NCBI GenBank assembly: GCA_015058655.1
Contig: SVBX01000007.1
Coordinates: 1-64,000, forward strand
DNA: 64,000 bases
Reading direction: 5' to 3'
DNA from: Pseudoselenomonas ruminantium
Lineage (GTDB): Bacteria; Bacillota; Negativicutes; Selenomonadales; Selenomonadaceae
Shown: positions 50,680 to 64,000 of the stretch, in pieces
Position numbering within the stretch: position 1 is the first letter of the stretch
How the letters are laid out: every line of letters begins with the position of its first letter
Notes under the pieces: generated by a model
Database searches by the model: none
What the model saw: only the letters and a program-made list of their open reading frames with translations
Told to the model about the DNA's origin: nothing
Made by a program: the position numbers and the translations under genes

Positions 50680-52215
50680 TCAGCAAGCCGACCAAAAAAC
50701 AGTCTCTTTGGCAATCCCCATGGCCATAAGTTCCCCGCGTATTTCATCGGCCTTTTCCCTGCTCTTGACAGCAATCACCAACTGCTCAAATCCTCCCCGC
50801 TGCAATCCCTCCACAGTTTCTACAGGCAGCTCCTGCCCTTGCAGGGCCTCAGCCTGCTTATCGACCCAGCAGACTACCTTCTTGCCACGATTCTGCAACA
50901 ACGCATAAAGGTCTCGCCCCATACGGCCTGCCCCGTACAGGGCAACCCTGTCTGCCAGCACTCCCACAGGATACCTATTAGCAAGGCCAAATGGTACTTC
51001 CTGCTCATCAGGCAACCCAGGCAACGCATCCAGGGACACATCCTCTCCCTGCAAACGGCGCAGGCGCAACTTCCCCACTGCCAGCTGCAAGGCGGCATCT
51101 TCTTCACGCTTGGACATAAGTTCACTTTCCCTGCGGGTGAGGGCCGCTCCGTTGTAATAGACAGTCTTGATTCCCAGCTCCTTAGCCTTGCCTATATCTG
51201 AGCCTTTGTTGTCTCCCGTATGCACCCAATAGAAGATATCCAGCCTTTCCCTCTCTTTGACCAGCCTATAACCATTGCCGCTCCACTTGCCCTTCTGCAT
51301 ATCTGCTGAGGAATAAATAGTAATGTCGCGGAATACTTCATCCACCGTCACCAGCAGGGAACGGATTTCCTTTTCTCCCAGATACATGTCAGAGATCAGG
51401 ATTACCCTGTGGCCGCTTGCCAGCAGTTTCTTCAGTTGCCCTGTATTCTCTTCAATGCCCACGAGATTGCGTTCTTCAAGCTCCAGCTCCAGCCTCATCA
51501 AACCCTGCAGCAGTTCCTCGCTCAGCCCCTCTGCCTCTCCCAGGCATTTATAGATTTCACCAAAAGTTATATCCTCCCGGTTGTCCTTCTGCCAGTGTTC
51601 CCGCGCCACCCGCTCATAATACCAGCGCATGTCGCAGAAGCCCTTTCGTACCCGGCGGGGCAGCCCCGGCAATAGGTTCTCATCTGCCAAAGCTTCCTGC
51701 ATAAGGGCAAAGATGCCCCGAGGGGTGGCGACTTTCCGCGTGACCAGGGTATCGAACACATCAAAGGACATCACATCATCCTCATGGTAAAGTATCCTCT
51801 TTTTCAGCTCCTCCCTGAGGCGGGTGGAGCTGGTACTCTCCGTATAGGGAAAGAACTCCACCTCCGAGCCACGCTCATGAAGAGCGGCTATCAAAGGCCC
51901 CCAGTTCCCATGGTCATCCCCGCAGAAATGGCAGTCAAAGGGATGCTGCTCCCAGATTTTCACCTTGTCATCATGTCCAACATCAACCCGGATGACTTCA
52001 TCTACATATTTGCAGGCTCCCACCAGAGCCGCCCGCTCCTCATAGGGCACATAGGGCTTTGCCCCCTTGTAGACTTCGTTCAGCTCATCAGACACCACCC
52101 CAGCTATGAGATAATCGCAGCGCTCCTTTGCCCGCTTAAAGAGGTTCAGATGCCCCACATGGAAAAGGTCAAAAGTTCCTTGCACATAGCCGCGTCCGTA
52201 CTTCTTCAAAAGCAC
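50680..52215 (-). CDS. Cytidylyltransferase-HAD fusion with C-terminal GAG module
   Basis: A 511-residue fusion. Residues 1-135: a TagD-like nucleotidyltransferase (GTFDLFHVGHLNLF with HxGH; STSSTRLR). Residues 145-370: a HAD-like domain (SFDVFDTLVTRK, DxD-type; VILISDMYLGEKEI; HTGDNKGSDIGKAKELG). From about 424: a Rossmann-like module (VALYGAGRMGRDLYALL). The first domain probably makes a CDP-activated alcohol such as CDP-glycerol or a relative; the substrate is unknown. GTG 52215 follows the LicD gene by one base; its ribosome site (AGGAGAGG) is in that gene. Confidence 0.8.
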   Translation of the reverse strand: MLLKKYGRGYVQGTFDLFHVGHLNLFKRAKERCDYLIAGVVSDELNEVYKGAKPYVPYEERAALVGACKYVDEVIRVDVGHDDKVKIWEQHPFDCHFCGDDHGNWGPLIAALHERGSEVEFFPYTESTSSTRLREELKKRILYHEDDVMSFDVFDTLVTRKVATPRGIFALMQEALADENLLPGLPRRVRKGFCDMRWYYERVAREHWQKDNREDITFGEIYKCLGEAEGLSEELLQGLMRLELELEERNLVGIEENTGQLKKLLASGHRVILISDMYLGEKEIRSLLVTVDEVFRDITIYSSADMQKGKWSGNGYRLVKERERLDIFYWVHTGDNKGSDIGKAKELGIKTVYYNGAALTRRESELMSKREEDAALQLAVGKLRLRRLQGEDVSLDALPGLPDEQEVPFGLANRYPVGVLADRVALYGAGRMGRDLYALLQNRGKKVVCWVDKQAEALQGQELPVETVEGLQRGGFEQLVIAVKSREKADEIRGELMAMGIAKETVFWSAC

Positions 52216-55020
52216 TCACCTCTCCTGTTCGTCCTCCAGAATCCATTCCTTCTCCTGCACATATATTTTATAGTCATGAAGCCCCATGCCCTCCAATTGT
52301 TTGCTAATAGCCTTGTAATGTATGCTGCAGATAATGAGATATAACTGACTCTGCGGCATGTCCAAAAGCTTTTCCGGCTCGATGATCTCCACGCCATGCC
52401 TGGTAGTGCCCCATTTCTTCTCATCGTTATCTACGATAAAAGCAGGTGGATAAGCCCTGCCATATTTTTTCATATAGTCCTCGAACATGAAGCCGCCACC
52501 AAAAAGCACCACGACCTTGCCCTCTGCCCCCTCGAAGAGCTTCCATAGCATATCCCGGTAGCGGGTGTATGGCACATCGGGATTGAAGATGCCCAGATGA
52601 TGCGGCTTGCGCTTGGACATGGGAGGGAACTTCATATAGTCCCTGCCTGCCGTCAGCTGCAAGCATTTTTTGTATTCTTTGGGAGCTTTCACCCGCAGAG
52701 GGCCGAAGGTGAGGTCTACACCCTCCTCGAAAAAACCACGCTCATAAATCCCCGGCATGCCTCCGCTGGTGAAAATGGCCAGATACCTGGAGTCCGCGTC
52801 TAGATCCTTCTGAAAAGCTGCCTGCAGTCTCCCCGTGAAGAAACTATGGGGCAAAAGCCAGGCCAGCCCACTGTGCAGTTGGCGTAGCCCCCACGGAATG
52901 TATCTGCGGGGTTCACCGTAAATCTTGGCATAAAGCAAGTTCTGCCAGAAATGTATCTCCCCTGCCTTTTTCTTGACCTGCCGCTTGTCCGAGGAACAGT
53001 AGTCCAGAGGCATAATATCCATCCATATGCCCAGATGGCAGTCATGGCCAAAGTCCTCCCGGCCTATGCCGGTGGTAGCATCATTGCGTAATCGGGAAAA
53101 GCCACCGAAAAAGGTATCCGGGTCATTGTCCATTGTTTGTAGGAAATATGGAGCATGGAACTTCTCCCCTAGAGCCAGCAGACGATCATAGTCTGCCCTG
53201 GGCATGACCACATCCGTATCATCGTCCCAGGGGATAAAACCACGATGACGCACGGCTCCCAGGAGGGTGCCGAAAAACACATAGTAGCGCAGCTTATGCT
53301 CCCGGCAGAACTCGGTAAAGGCTCCCAAAAGCCCATACTGCACCTGCCAGATTTTCCGCATCTTCTCCGACACCACATACTCGGGACTGTATTCCTCGTC
53401 CAGCCCCAAAAGCAGGCCGTTGCGCCTCATCTGGGCCTCATCCACCTGCATCCAACGGTAAAAATGCTTATAGAGCTTATGCTGCCGCACCTCCGGCAGG
53501 AAACGGCCATCTTCCTCCTTCACAAAGGCCTGCCACATCTTTTCCGTGATGCCATACCGCCCCATCAGCTCATGGCGGGGCACATATTTCTCAGTTTCCG
53601 GCGTGAAAACATAGGTATAGTGGATTGCTCGAAAAATCACATACTTGGCAGGATATTTTTCCCGCACATATTCTTGGTCGAAAAACAGGATGCCATCATC
53701 CTTGTAAAAGGCATTTAAGGGTATAAGTTCCAGGCTGGCCCTTTCAAGAATCGGTTCCCAAGGTTCCTCCAGCAGTTCCCTGCAAGGAGCAAAGGCACAG
53801 TCCTTTTTGGCAACTGTCTCCGAAGACTGCAGAATATACTGCCACAAATCATCGAAAATCTTGAGGAAAATCTCCTGATTATTTCTGGCTGCTTCCTTAA
53901 GAAACGAGGACAACATAGGGGCGTTTATGCGCTGCATCTCAATCTGGCCGTTTTGCCATCTGCCAGGCAGCACAGGCAAGCCTCGCTTCTGCAAATATGA
54001 GGACTTTTCCACCAGCCCTTGGGCATAAGGTTCACCCTGCGAAAATAGGGGACGCTTCGCAGCCTGGCCATTGGAGTAAAGCACCGTGGCAAGTGCCCTG
54101 TCCCTGCCTCTGTCCGTAGAGAGGGCTGCATAGACAGCCTTGGACAGGGATTCTGGCTCATTGACCAGCTCCAGCAGAAAAGAATTAGCAAAGAAAGGAA
54201 AAACGCCTCCCCTGACAACGTCGCTATACAATTTCCGTTCGTCTGCCACCAGGGTCTTGTTGTCCGGGTGGTAAACCAACAGCCGTTCATCCAGATTATC
54301 CTCCGGCAGGCATTCGTCCGTATAGATAAGTTGGGGCAACCGCCAGTCCGGCAGGGGATAATAGCACTTTACCCCGGAGGCCCCGGCCTCCTGTGCCAGA
54401 GCAAACAGTTCCTGCCTGGAAAAAGAACGGCCCTTGCCTTCCTGCCAAAGCTTGCCAATCCCAGCAAAGGGACGGCCTGTATTTCTCTCCTTTTCGCCGC
54501 AAAAAAATTTAAGTCCCAGCCTGTTGTCCACAGCAACGAACAGCCGACCTCTGGGGCTTAAGTGCCTCAAAAGCAACTTCAACATGGCAGCAGGGCCAGA
54601 TAGACTTTCCCCGGGCAGGGAAAGATCCTGCCCCACCTGCTCCAGCCCCCCGGCCAGCACAATATAATCAAAGCTGACATCAAGGGACTGCACATACTCC
54701 TGCCAGTCAGCATTGACAACGGTAAGCCCCGATAACCCCTCACAGCGACGACTTATGCCCTCACACCTGACAGAATCTACCTCCACCGCTGTTACTTCCC
54801 GGCATTTACGGCAAAATAGCTCCGTCAGGGAACCAAACTCGGCCCCCAGTTCCAATAGGCGGGATTCAGGATGGAAATCATACCACCCAAAAAGCCCTTG
54901 CCGATAATCAGCCAGATGCTCAAAGACCTCAAAGCGGGAATCATTTTCCAAGACAGAGGCATAATCAGTCCCATCTTCTACTTTTATGTATTTCAATATA
55001 TCGTTATCAACGTAACTCAT
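52216..55020 (-). CDS. Methyltransferase-LicD fusion with C-terminal GAG-like module
   Basis: A 934-residue multidomain protein. Residues 40-200: SAM methyltransferase fold (RLLELGAEFGSLTELFC, FDYIVLAGGLEQVG). About 560-790: LicD domain with YYVFFGTLLGAVRHRGFIPW and DDDTDVVMPRADYDRLL, the catalytic Asp-rich loop that transfers phospho-alcohols to glycans. About 835-934: VVVLFGGGFMFEDYMKKYG with FIVDNDEKKWG, related to the GAG module next door. ATG 55020 has GAGGACAGAGAC before it. Adjacent to a cytidylyltransferase, so it may use its product. Confidence 0.8.
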   Translation of the reverse strand: MSYVDNDILKYIKVEDGTDYASVLENDSRFEVFEHLADYRQGLFGWYDFHPESRLLELGAEFGSLTELFCRKCREVTAVEVDSVRCEGISRRCEGLSGLTVVNADWQEYVQSLDVSFDYIVLAGGLEQVGQDLSLPGESLSGPAAMLKLLLRHLSPRGRLFVAVDNRLGLKFFCGEKERNTGRPFAGIGKLWQEGKGRSFSRQELFALAQEAGASGVKCYYPLPDWRLPQLIYTDECLPEDNLDERLLVYHPDNKTLVADERKLYSDVVRGGVFPFFANSFLLELVNEPESLSKAVYAALSTDRGRDRALATVLYSNGQAAKRPLFSQGEPYAQGLVEKSSYLQKRGLPVLPGRWQNGQIEMQRINAPMLSSFLKEAARNNQEIFLKIFDDLWQYILQSSETVAKKDCAFAPCRELLEEPWEPILERASLELIPLNAFYKDDGILFFDQEYVREKYPAKYVIFRAIHYTYVFTPETEKYVPRHELMGRYGITEKMWQAFVKEEDGRFLPEVRQHKLYKHFYRWMQVDEAQMRRNGLLLGLDEEYSPEYVVSEKMRKIWQVQYGLLGAFTEFCREHKLRYYVFFGTLLGAVRHRGFIPWDDDTDVVMPRADYDRLLALGEKFHAPYFLQTMDNDPDTFFGGFSRLRNDATTGIGREDFGHDCHLGIWMDIMPLDYCSSDKRQVKKKAGEIHFWQNLLYAKIYGEPRRYIPWGLRQLHSGLAWLLPHSFFTGRLQAAFQKDLDADSRYLAIFTSGGMPGIYERGFFEEGVDLTFGPLRVKAPKEYKKCLQLTAGRDYMKFPPMSKRKPHHLGIFNPDVPYTRYRDMLWKLFEGAEGKVVVLFGGGFMFEDYMKKYGRAYPPAFIVDNDEKKWGTTRHGVEIIEPEKLLDMPQSQLYLIICSIHYKAISKQLEGMGLHDYKIYVQEKEWILEDEQER

Positions 55021-55110
55021 GTCTCTGTCCTCAAACCTTCCAGTATCCAACTATTCTTCAAAAAGAAATGACACCATCAATACGGCCATATTATCTTCAC
55101 TATACTAATC

Positions 55111-56172
55111 TCATAGGGCATATAACACCGTTTCTGCCCCACTTAAAGCATACTGCCGTAAAAAGAAGCAATAATCATCATGGTAGGATAACAGCAACTG
55201 CGGAATCTCAAAAATATCTTCGGGCTTATGATAGACACATATAGCCAGTTTGGGATGCTGTTCCAAAATAATCTTCTGCGCCCCTTTCAAGGCAGCAAGC
55301 TCTGCCCCCTCAACATCCATCTTTATAAACGAAACCTTCTGCCCACAGAGTTCCTCATCCAAGGAAGTCACCTCCACACTGGCATCACCAGTGTCAACCA
55401 GACTCGAGCCTTGGTTTCCCTGACTGTCAAAATGCAACGTGGCGCTCTTGCTCCATAAGCCTTTAGGTACAAGTTCGGCCTTGCCAGACGGAAAAGACGC
55501 CAGCCGCTGACGGCAAAGCTCCTGATTAGCCCCATCAGGCTCAAAACAAATTATACGACCAAAGTCATCTCCAGCCCATTTCGCAAAGCTAAGTGCCGTC
55601 AATCCATCATAAGCCCCGCCGTCAACAAATGATTCTCCCGATTTAGGTGTCAGTTCCTTCAGCCCGAAATACTGTTCCCCCATGCTGTCCAGGAATTCGT
55701 CTACACGCACGATACGATCTTCCTCAACACCAAGTTCTCGCAGTTGCTTCATGACTTCCTCTCGTGGCGCAGGATTCCCCGGCGTATGAATAGCCAAAAA
55801 AATCTGCGCGTCAGGCCATCTTCTGACCTCATCTGGAGCAAAAACAGGCAAGCCAGCTACACTTTTGCCCCAAAGGGACTTATTATTGTCCAGTATTCCT
55901 TGCCAGCACCCTGGCGTAGCAGCCAACATGCGCCTGCCACAAATCCCGGCACCGAACAGAAAGTTCTTCGCACCAGAATGCAGTTTCCCAATAATTTCAT
56001 GCCACTGTGGATAATATTCAAAAATCTTGTGAAGGAAACTACTCTCACCAGTAAGCGCATACATGGCTCGGCATTCATAAATGTGCCTGGATTCTTCATC
56101 CTGCAAATGTGCGTATACCTGACGTGCATTCCCTATATCCTTTGTCCAATCATAAATCTCTATCTTTTCCAT
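55111..56172 (-). CDS. FkbM-family methyltransferase with N-terminal GAG module
   Basis: A 353-residue protein. ATG 56172 follows GGAAGAGG; a longer frame is not supported. Residues 68-165: Rossmann-like module (FLFGAGICGRRML, then ILDNNKSLWG). Residues 190-353: FkbM methyltransferase (SFVDGGAYDGLTALSFA, IICFEPDGANQELC, VSFIKMDVEGAELAALKGA). FkbM enzymes usually methylate sugar hydroxyls. In this locus it likely caps or decorates the surface glycan. Confidence 0.85.
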   Translation of the reverse strand: MEKIEIYDWTKDIGNARQVYAHLQDEESRHIYECRAMYALTGESSFLHKIFEYYPQWHEIIGKLHSGAKNFLFGAGICGRRMLAATPGCWQGILDNNKSLWGKSVAGLPVFAPDEVRRWPDAQIFLAIHTPGNPAPREEVMKQLRELGVEEDRIVRVDEFLDSMGEQYFGLKELTPKSGESFVDGGAYDGLTALSFAKWAGDDFGRIICFEPDGANQELCRQRLASFPSGKAELVPKGLWSKSATLHFDSQGNQGSSLVDTGDASVEVTSLDEELCGQKVSFIKMDVEGAELAALKGAQKIILEQHPKLAICVYHKPEDIFEIPQLLLSYHDDYCFFLRQYALSGAETVLYAL

Positions 56173-56289
56173 GAAAACCTCTTCCTGCTTACAAACATTC
56201 CACCACTCATCATGCACCACGTAAATATCAACTGCAAATATGACAACTATCAAATACCAATTTTCAAGCAAGCAACCATCACGTTTTCA

Positions 56290-58296
56290 TTAAACGTTAA
56301 GATATGTTATCCACTCAGATATCCACTCGGATATCCTAGCCGGATAATAGATTTTATCAATGTCAACACCACGGTGCTGCATCTCTTCCATCACAGATTC
56401 CATTAGTTTTTCATCGGCAAAGTCTATCATAACCCAATCAAATGAATTCTGCCCCAAACTATTCATATCCCCTGTGACGGGAAGTTTATCCTTCAAAAAC
56501 AAATAATCCTTATCCAGCCACTGAACAACCTCGATGGCCCTATCGGCAGACAGTTCATTGTACCACCGCTGTCCCCGTTTGCCTGCTCCGTATAGAACAA
56601 CTTTTCTGCCCAAAAGGCTGTAAGGACACTGCCACCACCCCTGCAAGGACCTTGTTTCGCCTATTGGCTGAAACATTTTCAACCACCGTTCCCTAATCAT
56701 GCCACCCTCTTTTTTATATTTGTCAACCTTACGCTGAACATACAGCTCGCTTCGTTTGACAGACATATCAAAATCGGTACCGGGATAGTATGACCAAGCA
56801 GTAGTCCCTACATGACGAATATAAATGTCCCTAACCATTGTCTTGGTAAGCGGCGGAGCAAAAGATGGCGTATTATTTTCACGTCCAGTGACACGATTGG
56901 GAAGCCCCGCAAAGAAATCATTAACCTCATTGTTTTCCTGGTGACTTATATAGTCTATGCAAGCCAGCGATGTCTTGAGGCTGGGATTCGGCTCAAACCT
57001 TACTACAGATTCAGCATAAAATTTGGTAAAAATATCTATGCCACGAATATATTCTTCATATCCTTTTTCCCTGTAAATCTCTGCCTCTTCCTCTTTTTTT
57101 ACAGGAACCACTTTTCTTCCCTCACGACAATAACCTTCCGTTTGGCCCTCGGGTGCTCGGCAAATCATTTCCACTATCAAATCATTCTTCATCTTGCTAG
57201 GAAAAAAATCATAAAAAATGCATTCATCGTTAGGCATGCACACCCTGTCCATCTTATAAAAAAAAGTCCGTATGGGTCCTTTATAGAAAATTTCCATAAG
57301 CCTTGCCAAACATGTTTGAGTCAATCCTCCGCCACCAAGTTCCACAAAAGCAAATTTTTCGTCAGAAACATCCACTTCCTGTTGTAAGTAATCTACCACT
57401 AACTGCCGTTTCGCAGACAATTTTTGTTGCAACAAAACACGGAATTTATCCGATTTATCCAATTGCATGATAACGGCGGACAGTTCCTCAAAAGCCAGCC
57501 TATGGCCTTTTTCCACATACTCTGGCATCAAATGTGGGCGCAGGTCTTCCACCGAGATTTGCAAAACATCAGCCAAATCCTCTGCCGAGCAAATATGCTG
57601 TCCATGGGACCACCCCACCAATTCCTTCAATTCACCTATCTTTCCTTGATATGAAGGCATACGCCAAGCGCGTCTGGAACCATGTATGTAAAAAGTCTTT
57701 ATATTCAATCCTTTTCTCTCTATCAACACATCAGCCATGCGCTTCAAGATATATCCATCCCTGGCTATAAAAAAAAGCCGCTTAAATCCCAAGGATAGGG
57801 AACGCCCCAAAAGCCACTCAACATAAGGCATAAGGATTGGCCCACCCAAAGTTGCTCCCAGCTTCCCTACTCCTTGGAGATTTCCCTCCAAAACCGTCCT
57901 ACTTGCGGCTCCTGCCAACAACTGTGCCGAGAAATCCTCTTCTAGCCCAGCAGATAGCCAGGCTATATTGCTTTCGCCTTCCTCATGGTTTTCCAGTCCT
58001 GAGCAAAAAATCTTAAAAGTATGCCTGGCCTCCCTTTCCAAAGTTGCCAGTTGCCCTGCTTCTTCCTCTGTTAATTCTCCAGTCATAGACAAGGCATCAT
58101 AAATCTGTGCCAAATCCACTTGCGCTCCATCCGTACAGCTAAAGCGAAACCTGGCCAGTTCCTCAGCATGTTTCCGCAGTAGAACAAAATTCTGGCGAAT
58201 AAATGGCGATATTTTTTTATACCTCTTCTCTACTTCAAGGCATTTCTTCATATATGAAAAAATGCCAGCCTCGGTTGCAACTGCCAAGTAGTTCAT
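56290..58296 (-). CDS. Large RDGY-motif protein with C-terminal GAG module
   Basis: A 668-residue protein of a type met in capsule and LPS clusters. Residues ~140-230 include LGGPILMPYVEWLLGRSLSLG and FFIARDGYILKRMADVL, an HAD-like or nucleotide-sugar-linked domain of unknown activity; FVELGGGGLTQTCLARLMEI lies near 315. From ~564 RKVVLYGAGKRGQRWYNEL begins the GAG module. ATG 58296 has GGGAG ten bases upstream; a TTG at 58332 is also possible. Function unknown. Confidence 0.75.
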   Translation of the reverse strand: MNYLAVATEAGIFSYMKKCLEVEKRYKKISPFIRQNFVLLRKHAEELARFRFSCTDGAQVDLAQIYDALSMTGELTEEEAGQLATLEREARHTFKIFCSGLENHEEGESNIAWLSAGLEEDFSAQLLAGAASRTVLEGNLQGVGKLGATLGGPILMPYVEWLLGRSLSLGFKRLFFIARDGYILKRMADVLIERKGLNIKTFYIHGSRRAWRMPSYQGKIGELKELVGWSHGQHICSAEDLADVLQISVEDLRPHLMPEYVEKGHRLAFEELSAVIMQLDKSDKFRVLLQQKLSAKRQLVVDYLQQEVDVSDEKFAFVELGGGGLTQTCLARLMEIFYKGPIRTFFYKMDRVCMPNDECIFYDFFPSKMKNDLIVEMICRAPEGQTEGYCREGRKVVPVKKEEEAEIYREKGYEEYIRGIDIFTKFYAESVVRFEPNPSLKTSLACIDYISHQENNEVNDFFAGLPNRVTGRENNTPSFAPPLTKTMVRDIYIRHVGTTAWSYYPGTDFDMSVKRSELYVQRKVDKYKKEGGMIRERWLKMFQPIGETRSLQGWWQCPYSLLGRKVVLYGAGKRGQRWYNELSADRAIEVVQWLDKDYLFLKDKLPVTGDMNSLGQNSFDWVMIDFADEKLMESVMEEMQHRGVDIDKIYYPARISEWISEWITYLNV

Positions 58297-58385
58297 CTCA
58301 TGGCAACTCCCATCATCTATACTTACTCGCAATGCTATTCATCATTCAAAATTTTCCACCACAGATTTTTTTATCACTGAACAAC

Positions 58386-59720
58386 TTACGGCAAGGCATT
58401 CCATACATCTTTCTTTACGAGAAAGTCATTTGCATACACAATGTTCTCAAAACCATATCGACACAAATTTTCTTTCATTTCAATAAAATTTTGTGAATCC
58501 TTTTTCGCACACAGTATTACAGTAGATGAAAGTCTATAGGCGAGCAGCTCATCTATCTTGCAAATCTTAATCTTATCGCCTATGTACTCTTTATTCCCCA
58601 CTTGCGTAACGCCGCACAGAATCTTTTTATCCCATAAATCAAACTCCTCCAGTGCCTCAAGAACTATCTCCGCATATCTGCCAGCACCGTATAAAATGAT
58701 ATATGGTTCCTTGCTTACCATGCCATACCTTTTATCTCTATCATCATTTTCTTCTTGCATCTTACTGGCAAACAATTCAGGGCTTGCCATACATGTCAGC
58801 AGTTTTTTAGAATACAAGTTATCCATGGGCTCTATACGAAATAACTCAGACTTAAAACATTCTCTTATTTCTTGAGAAAGGATATATGCCAGAACACGCA
58901 TCAAGGAAATATGCACACAGGTAAAATACCAAAAATGAAGGCCGAAATCATATAAAGCGGCCTGAGTGAAATACCATTTTTTATTTTCCGGGTATGTTTT
59001 TACCCTTTCCCTAATAAATGCATACTCTTCCGCCAAGGAGTATATTTTAGTGCCATCATGTATAGAAGATGTAGGATTATCCAATCGGTACATATAGCCG
59101 CCTCGATTAAGAAAACACATCCTGCGGCAATACATGGTGGAAATGAACCAAAAACCATTATCCTGAAAAGAAGCACCCGGAGTTTCATTATGACGAATGT
59201 TAAACTCATCAAGAAAAACTTTGGCATACATACACATCCAAGTGTATCTTTCCGATTGGAACATTTCTTCATATCGGCTCTTATCCAGAACACATTCATA
59301 GTTTTCATTCCAGGAGGCAGGCACATATTTCTTGTATATCTCATCTCCCCTTGAAAAAAATCTGTAATACCCTGCTTTGGCAATGTCCAGCTTGTTTTTT
59401 TGACACGCTTCATACATGTCTTGACAGATATTCGGCAACAGGAAATCATCGCTTTCCAAAAAGAATATGTATTCTCCCTGTGCCTTGTCTATACCGAGAT
59501 TCATGGTATGCCCATACCCGGCATTCTCTTTGTGTATCACCCTGATTCTCGAATCAATATTGCTATATTCATCCAGCAAACTTGGCGAGGAATCCGTGGA
59601 GCCGTCATCAATGCATAGTATTTCTATGTCCCTCATGGTTTGCCTTATGGCGCTTTCTATGCACTGGGACAAGTATTTCTCCACATTATAAACCGGTATG
59701 ATGATAGTGACCTTAGGCAT
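58386..59720 (-). CDS. GT2 glycosyltransferase with C-terminal GAG module
   Basis: A 444-residue protein. Residues 1-230: GT-A fold (VTIIIPVYNVEKYLSQCIES, CIDDGSTDSSPSLL, FLESDDFLLPNICQDM with the metal-binding ESDD). Residues ~340-444: Rossmann-like module (YIILYGAGRYAEIVLEAL, LCAKKDSQNF). AT-richer than the housekeeping region. It should transfer a sugar to the growing glycan; donor and acceptor unknown. Confidence 0.88.
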   Translation of the reverse strand: MPKVTIIIPVYNVEKYLSQCIESAIRQTMRDIEILCIDDGSTDSSPSLLDEYSNIDSRIRVIHKENAGYGHTMNLGIDKAQGEYIFFLESDDFLLPNICQDMYEACQKNKLDIAKAGYYRFFSRGDEIYKKYVPASWNENYECVLDKSRYEEMFQSERYTWMCMYAKVFLDEFNIRHNETPGASFQDNGFWFISTMYCRRMCFLNRGGYMYRLDNPTSSIHDGTKIYSLAEEYAFIRERVKTYPENKKWYFTQAALYDFGLHFWYFTCVHISLMRVLAYILSQEIRECFKSELFRIEPMDNLYSKKLLTCMASPELFASKMQEENDDRDKRYGMVSKEPYIILYGAGRYAEIVLEALEEFDLWDKKILCGVTQVGNKEYIGDKIKICKIDELLAYRLSSTVILCAKKDSQNFIEMKENLCRYGFENIVYANDFLVKKDVWNALP

Positions 59721-59724
59721 CCAA

Positions 59725-60639
59725 TCACCTCAATTCCTCTATAATCCTGCTTATACCTTCTCTAAAGTTAATACAAGGCTCCCATTCCAGATCTTTTTTC
59801 AATTCGCTTATATCTGCCTCCAAATGCATTGCCTGATCCTTGTAATATAGAATTTTACCAAAGCCTAGTTCTGCAGAAGTGTCAATTAGACTCTTTATTT
59901 CTTCTACATAATCCCTCATGCTTCTTGCCTCACCGCTACCGAGCACATACACCTTTCCACCTTGCCCATATAACGCCATACGAAAGATGGCCTCCGCAGC
60001 ATCCGCAGCAAAAAGGTAGTCCCATATCTGCCTCCCATCTGTCAAAGCGGGATTATCCCCCTTCAGTAAGCACGATATGACGTACATAATCAAGGAGGAC
60101 TGAGGCATATTAATCCCATATACACTCAAGATACGCGCCCAAATATGCCTTATCCCCAAATCCTTGCACATAAATCTTGTCATTTGACCTGCACACAGTT
60201 TTGCCATACCATAGCCGCTTATCGGTTGCACAGGGGTGTCTGGCTTCATGATGTCAGACACAGGGCCATATTCTGCCTGACTGCCTGCTCCCACGTACAC
60301 ACTACAACCCAGAGCATGCGCCGCCTTCACGCTGTCTAGAGCATATCTGACGTTGTTATTCTGAATATACATATCCATGCGACTTTGTCCCGTTGTGCCA
60401 GTCCAAGCCAAATGAAAGAATGCATCCGCCTTGGCATCTATCAGCCCAGGGAGTTTTTGCAGGTTGCCTATATCGCATTCTACTCGAGTAACCAATTCAT
60501 TACTTGGTATGTTGACATTACGGGAAGATTCATGGCGACATACGGCATATACTTTAATTCCTTCTTTTACTAGCCTCTTTATAAGTGCCGTACCTATGAC
60601 CCCGGATCCCCCCGTCACTACTGCACTGCTTATTTTCAT
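59725..60639 (-). CDS. NAD-dependent sugar epimerase/dehydratase
   Basis: A 304-residue extended SDR enzyme with VVTGGSGVIGTALIKRL (NAD(P) loop) and the catalytic YGMAKLCAGQM (Tyr-x-x-x-Lys). Spacing to its neighbours is 4 and 16 bases, so it is part of the operon. It modifies a nucleotide sugar; the exact reaction cannot be read from sequence. Confidence 0.9.
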   Translation of the reverse strand: MKISSAVVTGGSGVIGTALIKRLVKEGIKVYAVCRHESSRNVNIPSNELVTRVECDIGNLQKLPGLIDAKADAFFHLAWTGTTGQSRMDMYIQNNNVRYALDSVKAAHALGCSVYVGAGSQAEYGPVSDIMKPDTPVQPISGYGMAKLCAGQMTRFMCKDLGIRHIWARILSVYGINMPQSSLIMYVISCLLKGDNPALTDGRQIWDYLFAADAAEAIFRMALYGQGGKVYVLGSGEARSMRDYVEEIKSLIDTSAELGFGKILYYKDQAMHLEADISELKKDLEWEPCINFREGISRIIEELR

Positions 60640-60655
60640 GCCATCATTCTTTCCA

Positions 60656-62233
60656 TCATTTATTTCTGGTTAAATCATACAGGGTGTCCGTAAGGAAATT
60701 TATCTTCATTTTTTTCGTAATTTCCTTCAGTTCACTTTCTATATGCCTGTTTCTGCTGAGCCTGTCGGCAAACTGGAAATCAAGTTCTTTATTATAATAG
60801 CTTCCCTCCTTGTCATATCCATCCATGCCCGCAACTGTAACATGCCCCACTCCTGCTTTCCTCAAGAGTTTTAAGGCCATTAGGCCAGAGTTGTCCACGA
60901 TGTCCGGATAATCGGAAATAAAGCTTGCGTAATTCACCATATAGTCATGATGCTTTGCTTCCTTGATGTTTGATGTAATAATCTTCTTGACATCTGACTT
61001 CTTATCCAGCCACCTGTACCTGCGCATGTTACTGCTAAATAGCGCCGCCACAGGAAACTCCTTGGAAACGAAATTCAGGGATATCACCAGTGCGTCGTGT
61101 TCCTTAATGTATTCATTTATCTTTTCCTTTTCCCTGTTCAGGCTATGTCCGGGAGCCAGGAGCAAGACTTCCCTGCCCTGAAGCCAACTTTTCAGTTCAG
61201 CTATTGTTTCATGGTCGTCTATGTAATTCTTTTGGTATTCCAGATAATATTTTTCCGCCTTGTCCTGAGAATAAGAAGCCTTGTCCTCCTTAGGTATTCC
61301 CCGTAAAAGTTCATTAAAGGACTTTGCCGTCAGTGTATTTTTTTTGCCCAAATACACGGCATAGTTTGGATGGCACAAATTACTTGCAGATAGATAATAA
61401 GGCAGAAAATATCCCCAGGGATTTTTCTTGTAAATATCATTAAGGTACTCATCTGCAATTTCCAGCATAGGCTCTATCTGATAATGGGTGCCAAAATTCT
61501 CATTCATGTACTCTGCAAAAAGTTCAAGGTTTAAGTTGCCCGCACCCCGTCCCATGCCGAAAACGCAAGCATCTATATACAAATCCCGGCGAAGATTGCT
61601 CTCAACCATGGCCTCCGCGTTGCCAAAGGCCTGCTGAAGATTATTGTGTGAATGATATCCCAAGGCAATTTCTGGCTTTAAATTATTATCCGCCAAATAC
61701 AGCAAACGTAAAAAATGCTTTCTCTTGATAACACCGAAGCTGTCCACTATATATACAGCATCGGGATTTATCTCGTTAAATTTATGGATAACATCCACAA
61801 ATTCGCTGTCAGAATAATTGTCAGTTCCAACAAGCTGCACAAACACTTTATAGCCTTGAGCTATAACATGCTTGCAATACTCATAGCCCTGTTCTATTTT
61901 GTTCTTCTTGAAAATCACCCGTAATGCATCAACGGACTTGCCATCATATGGGCAAATACACTCCTTATCAACGGGCGCACTCATGTCCAGCATACCAATG
62001 TAAGTAACATTAGGATTCTTAGGAGCAATTAGGTCAGCAATGCAAGCCACATTTGGAAACATAGTCCTGTCCTTTGAAAAGTCATTTCCTTTGACAAAAC
62101 CAACTTCCACAGCCTCTATGCCCGTCTGTCCCAGTTTCCAGCAGATATCCCTGATGGCCTTTTCCCCGAACCGCCAGTCATTGATATAGCCTCCGTCCCG
62201 CAACGTGCTGTCCACCAAATTGATTTTATACAT
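60656..62233 (-). CDS. DRE-TIM aldolase with C-terminal extension
   Basis: A 525-residue protein. Residues 1-280 are an HMG-CoA-lyase/oxovalerate-aldolase-like TIM barrel (NLVDSTLRDGGYINDWRF, GYHSHNNLQQAFGNAEAMV with the HxHN metal site, ACVFGMGRGAGNLNLELFAE). Residues 340-525 form a second domain (REVLLLAPGHSLNREKEKIN, VTVAGMDGYDKEGSYYNKEL) resembling a DUF115/Maf-type or sugar-handling fold, without a sure family. It joins or splits a keto-acid; together with the TPP enzyme and epimerase it suggests an unusual acyl or sugar building block. Confidence 0.82.
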   Translation of the reverse strand: MYKINLVDSTLRDGGYINDWRFGEKAIRDICWKLGQTGIEAVEVGFVKGNDFSKDRTMFPNVACIADLIAPKNPNVTYIGMLDMSAPVDKECICPYDGKSVDALRVIFKKNKIEQGYEYCKHVIAQGYKVFVQLVGTDNYSDSEFVDVIHKFNEINPDAVYIVDSFGVIKRKHFLRLLYLADNNLKPEIALGYHSHNNLQQAFGNAEAMVESNLRRDLYIDACVFGMGRGAGNLNLELFAEYMNENFGTHYQIEPMLEIADEYLNDIYKKNPWGYFLPYYLSASNLCHPNYAVYLGKKNTLTAKSFNELLRGIPKEDKASYSQDKAEKYYLEYQKNYIDDHETIAELKSWLQGREVLLLAPGHSLNREKEKINEYIKEHDALVISLNFVSKEFPVAALFSSNMRRYRWLDKKSDVKKIITSNIKEAKHHDYMVNYASFISDYPDIVDNSGLMALKLLRKAGVGHVTVAGMDGYDKEGSYYNKELDFQFADRLSRNRHIESELKEITKKMKINFLTDTLYDLTRNK

Positions 62234-62238
62234 TTATA

Positions 62239-64000
62239 TCACTCCCGTCCTATAGCTAATGCCATTTCCCTGATTTCTGCATTTTCCTCATCCGACAAAA
62301 AAGGAGCCATATTATCAAGCGTTGCCGACACCATGCTCCCGTCGGCTAGCTTCCTGGCCGCCACCTTCGGCTCGAATTTTTGCTCCTTGTCTACGAAGAC
62401 CTCACAGATAAAGGGACCTGATTTTGAAAGTATTTCATTTACCTGCTCCTGCAATCCCTCATTTTCCTCGATGGAAAAGTAGTCCAGCCCATATGCGGTG
62501 GCAATACTGGAAAGCCTTGGAAAGCCCAAATCCCCGCTGTCTTCTCCTACCCCGACCAAGGGCGGAGCAAAGTAATTCGACTGAGTCTGGCGGATAGAAT
62601 GATATCCGCCATTATTGATTACAAATATTTTCACCGGCAGCTTGTTAAATGAAATAGTCGCCAGTTCCTGAATATTCATCTGTAAGCTACCATCCCCCGT
62701 CAAGTTAACTACATCTTTCCTGCCAATGGCAACGCATGCACCTATGGCGGCAGGAAGATCGTAGCCCATGGAGGCAATGGCAGAATTGATGATGAATCTC
62801 TGCCTGGGCTTGATCACATAGGCATGGCTACCGACAACGCAAGCGGATCCATTTCCCACCACGGTCACCTGCCCCTCACTCAAGGAGCTGCTGAGGGCAT
62901 GAACAAAGGCATAGACATTTACCCTGCCTTGCTGCTTATAATGCTTTTCCTGCACAACAGGATACCGCTCTTTCCATGTACTGCAGCACTCTAACCAGCC
63001 ATTGTCATGGAACAATACATCATCCGGAAGATAATCTAGCAACTTTTCCATAAACGCCTTAGCATCAGCCCATACTGGAATATCTACGTGCAGGGTTGGC
63101 TTTCGCAACTCGTCCTTGTCAATGTCATTGGCTATGACAAAGGCATCTTTTGCCCAGGCTGTCCAGTTGTATCCCACTTGACGTATGCTCAGGCGGCTGC
63201 CGATAGAAAGCACCAAGTCACTGTTTTGAATGGCAAAATTTCCCGCCCTGTCGCCCATAATGCCACTACGGCCCACATAGAGGGAATGATCATCACTCAT
63301 GAGATCTATGCTGTTCCATCCTGTAACAACCGGGATATTCAGCTTTTCGACCAGTTTTTGGAACACATCATATCCCCCGGACAAACGGATGGCACTGCCC
63401 GCATTCAGCACCGGCCTTTTTGCGTGACGTATCTTCTCTACAATTGTTTCCAAAAGTTCCTCAGAAGGGGGCGGCGGCAGAGTAGTGTCAAAAGCCGCAC
63501 TGTCATACCCCAAAAGTTCTTCTGTCTCGATATACGCTCCTTGGACATTCAAGGGTATATCCAGCCAACAGGGTCCTGGTCTGCCAGTTGTGGCTTCATG
63601 ATAGGCTCGCTCCAGTGCTTTTCTAATCTGCCCTGGATCCGTCACCATCTCACAGTACTTGGTCATGGAACTGACGGCCTGGCATATATCAAACTCCTGA
63701 TCTCCCATGGCCCGCAAATTCAAGCCCGTACTGCGAGCCGTAGTATCATAGCGAACCTGTCCTGATATAATCAGCATAGGGATAGAGTCCAGCCATCCTC
63801 CCACGACACCGGTTATAGCATTGGTGCCTCCCGGACCCGTGGTAACGCAGACAGCCGCCATCTTGTTATTTATGCGGGCATAGCTCTCAGCCGCAATAGC
63901 ACAGGCCTGCTCGTGGTGATTGTACAAGCAATGCACCCCCTGCTGGTGCCCCAGTGCATCATTCAGATGCATGGCACCTCCACCGGTAATCATAAAACAT
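62239..64000 (-). CDS. Acetolactate-synthase-like TPP enzyme (5' end outside the window)
   Basis: At least 586 residues, N-terminus missing; the frame remains open to the window edge (CFMITGGGAMHLNDALG). N-terminal Pyr domain with the catalytic Glu in NHHEQACAIAAESYARI, and C-terminal PP domain with TGDGSLQMNIQELATI and VINNGGYHSIRQTQ. Similar to acetolactate synthase, but placed in a glycan locus and not beside ilv genes, so it more likely adds an acyl group to a sugar or keto-acid. Confidence 0.88.
   Translation of the reverse strand, partial: CFMITGGGAMHLNDALGHQQGVHCLYNHHEQACAIAAESYARINNKMAAVCVTTGPGGTNAITGVVGGWLDSIPMLIISGQVRYDTTARSTGLNLRAMGDQEFDICQAVSSMTKYCEMVTDPGQIRKALERAYHEATTGRPGPCWLDIPLNVQGAYIETEELLGYDSAAFDTTLPPPPSEELLETIVEKIRHAKRPVLNAGSAIRLSGGYDVFQKLVEKLNIPVVTGWNSIDLMSDDHSLYVGRSGIMGDRAGNFAIQNSDLVLSIGSRLSIRQVGYNWTAWAKDAFVIANDIDKDELRKPTLHVDIPVWADAKAFMEKLLDYLPDDVLFHDNGWLECCSTWKERYPVVQEKHYKQQGRVNVYAFVHALSSSLSEGQVTVVGNGSACVVGSHAYVIKPRQRFIINSAIASMGYDLPAAIGACVAIGRKDVVNLTGDGSLQMNIQELATISFNKLPVKIFVINNGGYHSIRQTQSNYFAPPLVGVGEDSGDLGFPRLSSIATAYGLDYFSIEENEGLQEQVNEILSKSGPFICEVFVDKEQKFEPKVAARKLADGSMVSATLDNMAPFLSDEENAEIREMALAIGRE

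Follow-up and report, generated by a model that had tools for sequence, protein, structure and literature searches.

Five consecutive and otherwise unrelated open reading frames (ORFs) of Pseudoselenomonas ruminantium contig SVBX01000007.1 each carry one copy of a homologous Rossmann module of ~95-105 residues. They lie at 50,680-59,720 of the 64,000-nucleotide stretch analyzed here, which we call the window, in a locus whose genes point to surface-glycan assembly. In other bacterial loci that share one of the five enzymes, the module is present or absent by locus as a whole. The best reading of this pattern is that the module is a tag, one per polypeptide, for co-assembly or co-regulation of the enzymes that carry it, and co-assembly would include a docking step between tags. 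The five ORFs and their modules are as follows.

50,680-52,215, minus strand: cytidylyltransferase-HAD ORF (CTHAD)
50,683-50,961, minus strand: CTHAD module, residues 419-511, C-terminal, with the acidic residue that ends strand beta2 (beta2-Asp) present; profile E 5e-20
52,216-55,050, minus strand: methyltransferase-MID-LicD ORF (MT/LicD)
52,228-52,533, minus strand: MT/LicD module, residues 840-941, C-terminal, beta2-Asp present; profile E 1.8e-27 and AlphaFold2 model
55,111-56,271, minus strand: FkbM ORF
55,669-55,986, minus strand: FkbM-protein module, residues 96-201, N-terminal to the catalytic domain; profile E 6e-17
56,290-58,332, minus strand: RDGY (CriT-like) ORF
56,308-56,622, minus strand: RDGY/CriT module, residues 571-675, C-terminal; profile E 7e-10
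58,386-59,720, minus strand: GT2 ORF
58,401-58,721, minus strand: GT2 module, about residues 333-441, C-terminal, beta2-Asp replaced (type B); profile E 1.2e-9

The initial annotation had proposed that these five proteins share one module, placed C-terminally in four and N-terminally in the FkbM protein. Residue mapping confirmed the positions, and a profile of about 194 modules from which those of the window were excluded recovered all five with the E-values listed above, against a best value of 0.15 among 1000 shuffled controls. The sequences are highly divergent, being about 20-30% identical. Pairwise BLAST among the five was significant for some pairs only, such as CTHAD-RDGY (1e-9) and MT/LicD-FkbM (7e-9). 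A jackknife, in which a profile of four modules was used against the remaining one, clearly recovered four of them, and the GT2 module was indistinguishable from shuffles.

Module presence is all-or-none by locus. As an anchor we used the RDGY protein, a homolog of the CriT transferase described below. A single-sequence CriT search in the phylum gave just one other, weak homolog; a pattern scan of genome contigs gave 80 loci from many phyla, which we considered with 10-kb flanks. Sixteen of the 80 CriT homologs have a C-terminal module, placed as in the window, and 64 have none. Further module-bearing genes, up to 10 per locus, occur in the flanks of 15 of the 16 tagged loci versus 1 of the 64 untagged ones (Fisher p 3.8e-14, a value that overstates independence because well-supported branches of the CriT tree force no more than two of the seven label changes). 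An independent-pairs test on this tree yielded two supported pairs only and had no power. Looking at single families, HAD (16/16), LicD (9/9), GT2 (9/10), FkbM (4/4) and cytidylyltransferase (9/11) proteins are tagged in module-type loci, versus 0/62 HAD, 0/3 LicD and 0/19 GT2 proteins in module-free CriT loci. Loci anchored on LicD point the same way: among 15 LicD matches, 12 lie in module-free stretches (~20 kb or shorter), two are untagged beside a module cluster, and one is the window's own. That module presence might be a property of the genome rather than of the locus was rejected by a within-genome control, where one genome (G436) has a module-free locus (L098) with a 1073-residue CrpP-CriT polymerase and holds 27 modules elsewhere.

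Within module-type CriT loci, the module behaves as a tag of the polypeptide. Exactly one copy is present in 110 of 112 tagged ORFs, and it may sit at the C terminus (71 cases), at the N terminus (31) or internally (12). Series of consecutive, fully tagged genes reach 8 (L088 and L093), 10 (L090 and L121) and 11 (L123) members. On the cytidylyltransferase it changes ends, being C-terminal in L089, L090, L094 and L123, N-terminal in L092 and L093, and placed behind the HAD domain in the window and L088. In Propionispira raffinosivorans (L088), moreover, methyltransferase-MID and LicD are separate ORFs with one module each, versus one chain with one module in the window. The untagged genes amid tagged ones mostly encode precursor enzymes (nucleotidyltransferases, GDP-mannose dehydratase, epimerase, phosphomannose isomerase), along with a few glycosyltransferases. 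The earlier suggestion of a common task behind the repeated fusions is thus strongly supported, as tagging is all-or-none by locus, falls once on each polypeptide, swaps ends and gives two copies to a split enzyme.

One might instead regard the module as an evolutionary passenger, a promiscuous stabilizing domain transferred in blocks with a few locus types and serving no joint task. The partial kinship of the module-type CriT loci and the deep divergence of the modules would fit this explanation. It becomes difficult, however, with the end changes, the second copies on split enzymes and the runs of 8-11 successive unrelated genes that are nearly all tagged, as these imply selection for one module per polypeptide, and the motif has been conserved in spite of the divergence. 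We hence consider a mere passenger improbable.

The initial annotation had also offered binding of a shared nucleotide-sugar as the common task. As binding of each enzyme's own substrate this proposal is weakened, and we disfavor it, because several tagged enzymes (FkbM methyltransferase, the transferase that uses phosphoribosyl pyrophosphate (PRPP), HAD phosphatase, radical S-adenosylmethionine (SAM) proteins) use no nucleotide-sugar and soluble enzymes of the same loci that make nucleoside diphosphate (NDP)-sugars are mostly untagged. The common task may instead be docking, of the enzymes to each other or to a scaffold, or response to a common nucleotide signal.

The search for other fusions that had been suggested on the basis of the window was productive, and the idea of a module specific to this locus was rejected: copies also occur in the same genome at three further glycan loci, and elsewhere in the phylum. 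In this genome, 29 proteins share 32 copies. They cluster at C19 50.7-76 kb, C30 66-77 kb, C44 67-84 kb and C46 120-137 kb, four glycan loci that span about 70 kb and hold nearly all copies. Ten of the tagged proteins belong to the extended window locus on C19 and 19 to the other three. Fusion partners in this genome include GT2, GT4/1, GT9, FkbM, TylF, radical SAM/SPASM, TupA ATP-grasp, MptE-like, RgpF, DUF4422, Caps_synth and HAD proteins. Across the phylum more than 20 enzyme families carry the module, with CDP-glycerol glycerophosphotransferase, LicD, cytidylyltransferase, xylose-isomerase-like and FrhB proteins as additional partners. At least one profile match was found in 156 of 399 phylum genomes, a count in which some matches are probably Rex itself; the search also returned open frames of 210-240 residues at 1e-8 that are, by their length, probably Rex-like. 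One Lachnospiraceae genome holds 47 modules.

Judged by profile comparison and a structural model, the module belongs to the type of nucleotide-binding Rossmann domain found in Rex, the CapD N terminus, the WbaP DUF and PglD_N. Against chains of the PDB, the module profile matched 3NKL best (8e-10), which is annotated as a UDP-quinovosamine 4-dehydrogenase of the CapD N-terminal type, followed by Rex (2.6e-7) and WbaP (~9e-4). An AlphaFold2 model of the MT/LicD module (predicted local distance difference test, pLDDT, 82.7) has a Rossmann fold, with Rex and 3NKL as top Foldseek matches. In the module region of all five window proteins, no curated cut-off of Pfam or NCBIfam was reached. Twenty-two isolated modules of the genome gave weak matches to PglD_N, CoA_binding, DapB_N and C2185-like_N. 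The 25 of 35 matching families that were listed did not include CoA_binding_3, the WbaP DUF (PF13727).

Rex (CoA_binding, PF02629) shares the GxGxxG motif, beta2-Asp and the D-x-x-K-x-G...G-x-P-V...L layout with the module. It differs by its N-terminal winged-helix DNA-binding part; the five window proteins lack such a Pfam match, and their module is fused to glycan enzymes. PglD_N (PF17836), found in the PglD, NeuD and VioB acetyltransferases that handle UDP- and TDP-sugars, resembles the module in glycan context and is weakly matched by 6 of the 22 isolated modules (best E 3e-4, below threshold). These proteins are, however, left-handed beta-helix acetyltransferases, and neither PglD_N nor Hexapep, the family of this beta-helix, was matched in the window proteins. 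The WbaP-type DUF and the N-terminal domain of CapD/PglF come close in Rossmann type, glycan context and accessory role. The WbaP domain follows a four-helix bundle in one membrane enzyme, whereas the module is attached, as a free-standing tag, to soluble enzymes of the same locus, from more than 20 families; for WbaP only, dimer exchange via a beta-hairpin and uridine-nucleotide binding are known (PMC10942596). Lastly, C2185-like_N (PF22674) covers a sliver of the family: its curated cut-off of 27 bits was passed by one of the 32 genome modules (27.8 bits) and a few in relatives, all five window modules remained below it, and we found no functional description of this family.

Residues typical of nucleotide binding are well kept. 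The GxGxxG motif keeps its first glycine in 96% and its second in 89% of 296 distinct modules, and beta2-Asp is present in 81%. Rossmann enzymes in general use a carboxylate at the end of beta2 to bind ribose (PMC4777477). The best reading of these residues is that the module probably still binds a nucleotide. Modules that lack beta2-Asp are more common on GT2 enzymes (22/60, the window GT2 module included) than on others (31/236; p 1e-4). Where modules occur in tandem (L203, L204, L205, L206, L104), five of eight pairs combine one module with and one without beta2-Asp, a mixed pairing that is suggestive and, given kinship, not significant.

The catalytic parts of the five proteins comprise the following domains.

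51,802-52,194, minus strand: cytidylyltransferase domain (glycerol-3-phosphate/phosphoethanolamine type)
51,151-51,774, minus strand: HAD domain of CTHAD, CrpP homolog (residues 148-355); E 1.5e-15 to Bcs3 385-596
53,341-54,303, minus strand: MID, conserved region linking methyltransferase and LicD; 43-76% identity in relatives
52,657-53,307, minus strand: LicD domain (phosphotransferase type); PF04991 E 2.7e-34
55,183-55,629, minus strand: FkbM methyltransferase domain; PF05050 1.4e-14
57,094-57,843, minus strand: CriT-like catalytic domain, residues 164-413; E 9.6e-30 to Bcs3
57,913-58,332, minus strand: degenerate remnant of an N-terminal CrpP phosphatase in the CriT protein; alignment with L088, L089, L091 and L096
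59,310-59,708, minus strand: GT2 glycosyltransferase domain; PF00535 4.7e-35

Two of them are homologous to parts of Bcs3, the capsule polymerase of Haemophilus influenzae type b, which has the order CroT-CrpP-CriT-SH3b. The RDGY protein matches CriT, and all seven residues that bind PRPP in the Bcs3 structure (R679, D680, S707, R708, R712, E818 and T825; PMC10299916) are conserved in its ARDGY, GSRRAWR and FVELGGGGLT segments. Its RDGY motif holds the R679-D680 pair, preceded by Ala in place of S678. What had been merely an RDGY protein is thus predicted to be a PRPP-dependent ribofuranosyl-5-phosphate transferase. The HAD part of CTHAD corresponds to the CrpP phosphatase and possesses SFDVFDT with the motif I nucleophile. 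Most CriT homologs carry CrpP fused to their N terminus; in the window CriT this part has decayed, with motif I lost and about 88 residues deleted, and the CTHAD phosphatase may therefore have taken over its role. From these assignments, together with LicD and the cytidylyltransferase, we predict that the product of the locus is a glycan with ribofuranose and a CDP-derived phospho-group. The MID region has many invariant residues across loci and gave no match to any Pfam family or PDB chain; its pattern may be kinase-like.

In Bcs3, CriT, CrpP and CroT form one covalent multi-enzyme machine, whose polymer-binding SH3b domain is indispensable (PMC10299916). The window, in contrast, distributes its activities over separate chains, each with a Rossmann module. 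This is reminiscent of the ABC-dependent O-antigen complexes of Klebsiella pneumoniae O4 and O7, which are multiprotein, have variably distributed catalytic modules and use a PRPP-dependent ribofuranosyltransferase; there, however, a coiled-coil terminator protein is the scaffold, and the passages of that report considered here describe no shared Rossmann tag (PMC11231755).

By analogy, the most economical reading would be that a nucleotide-binding pairing domain has been reused as a co-assembly tag. Rex dimers bind NAD(H), and Rex senses NADH. In WbaP, the homologous domain sits at the interface of the dimer and is stabilized by uridine mono-, di- and triphosphate (UMP, UDP, UTP), and UMP inhibits the enzyme with a half-maximal inhibitory concentration of 4.1 µM (PMC10942596). 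The tags would accordingly mark enzymes that act on the growing surface glycan in the cytoplasm, and tags of one locus would most likely pair with each other as these homologs do. Pairing could bring transferases, phosphatase, methyltransferase and cytidylyltransferase together in one assembly that is stabilized or switched by a bound nucleotide, most likely a uridine nucleotide, with NAD(H) next. In the window assembly, CriT would add PRPP-derived ribofuranose, the CrpP-like HAD enzyme would remove its 5-phosphate, cytidylyltransferase and LicD would add a CDP-linked phospho-group, and the chain would be methylated and extended. We give this proposal, a common tag by which a nucleotide controls co-assembly, a somewhat less than even chance. 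More tentatively, such a nucleotide-gated tag might organize a whole class of surface-glycan pathways, in which each acceptor-acting enzyme is tagged and tags of the same locus recognize each other. It would then be a third way to build an assembly line, beside the Bcs3 mega-enzyme and the coiled-coil scaffold.

Several observations weigh against the co-assembly proposal. About a fifth of the modules lack beta2-Asp. An AlphaFold2 model of a natural tandem pair showed two well-folded modules whose orientation was not fixed (predicted template modeling score, pTM, 0.49), so that this model does not support pairing. The cytidylyltransferase usually bears a tag even though it is a precursor enzyme, and some transferases of module-type loci bear none. 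The module-bearing CriTs are partly one related group, as the few forced label changes on their tree indicate.

Nucleotide binding might also serve regulation alone. The module could be an allosteric sensor of UMP/UDP, or of NADH, that throttles the acceptor-acting part of the pathway jointly upon a change in product nucleotide or redox state, with no docking involved. The uridine-nucleotide response of WbaP, NADH sensing by Rex and the conservation of beta2-Asp in most modules speak for such a sensor. Yet the donors of the tagged enzymes are too diverse (SAM, PRPP, CDP-linked groups, NDP-sugars, phosphate monoesters) for a product-feedback logic to fit each enzyme, and the same fifth of modules misses the ribose-binding Asp; we therefore regard a pure sensor as rather unlikely. 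A further possibility is that the module grips a feature common to the intermediates, e.g., the undecaprenyl-diphosphate head or a nucleoside-like group of the primer, and so holds enzymes on the lipid-linked glycan. The preference of the tag for acceptor-acting over soluble precursor enzymes agrees with this, as does the essential SH3b domain of Bcs3. The conserved residues are, however, of the nucleotide-binding Rossmann type and not those of known lipid or carbohydrate binders, and the frequently tagged cytidylyltransferase (9 of 11 loci) never touches the acceptor, which makes acceptor binding improbable. We thus retain the nucleotide-binding co-assembly tag as our working proposal.

For the question of what holds the separate cytoplasmic enzymes for a surface glycan together and in register, few worked answers are available, namely covalent fusion and coiled-coil rulers. 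It becomes testable with one tag that as many as 11 unrelated enzymes in a row share and that a locus either has or lacks, a pattern which suggests that the tag gathers or co-regulates glycan-assembly enzymes. Neither the fold nor its nucleotide-binding relatives are new, and Pfam reaches the family only at the margin via PF22674. As far as we could check, the module is nonetheless undescribed, as the initial annotation had supposed: we found no paper on a common module across glycan-locus enzymes, in a search that reached few subscription journals. There is hence a real chance that the common tag represents a new organizing principle. In gut and rumen Bacillota, the module may serve as a marker for recognizing such loci and assigning their many unannotated proteins.

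Beyond the GT2 gene, the tagged series is broken at 59.7-67.3 kb by untagged SDR, aldolase, thiamine pyrophosphate (TPP) enzyme and CDP-hexose-type genes, the last assigned by reading the sequence, and tagged GT2 genes then resume. Within the window, this gap comprises one block.

59,725-63,993, minus strand: three module-free precursor-sugar genes, encoding an SDR, an HMGL-type aldolase fusion and an acetolactate-synthase-like TPP enzyme

The aldolase (60,656-62,233, minus strand), a relative of PDB 3DXI, has a C-terminal region that looks MptE/DUF115-like by sequence and is not the module. Directly adjoining the block on C19 (L022), genes resembling DdhC, DdhB and DdhA follow at 64,061-67,280. 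Taken together, these genes look like a pathway for a CDP-linked branched-chain sugar of the yersiniose type plus an extra aldolase. Farther along the same extended locus, at 70,610-72,161, lie NeuA- and NeuB-like genes, as for a nonulosonic acid, and a gene resembling that of a TylF-type methyltransferase, all of them untagged.

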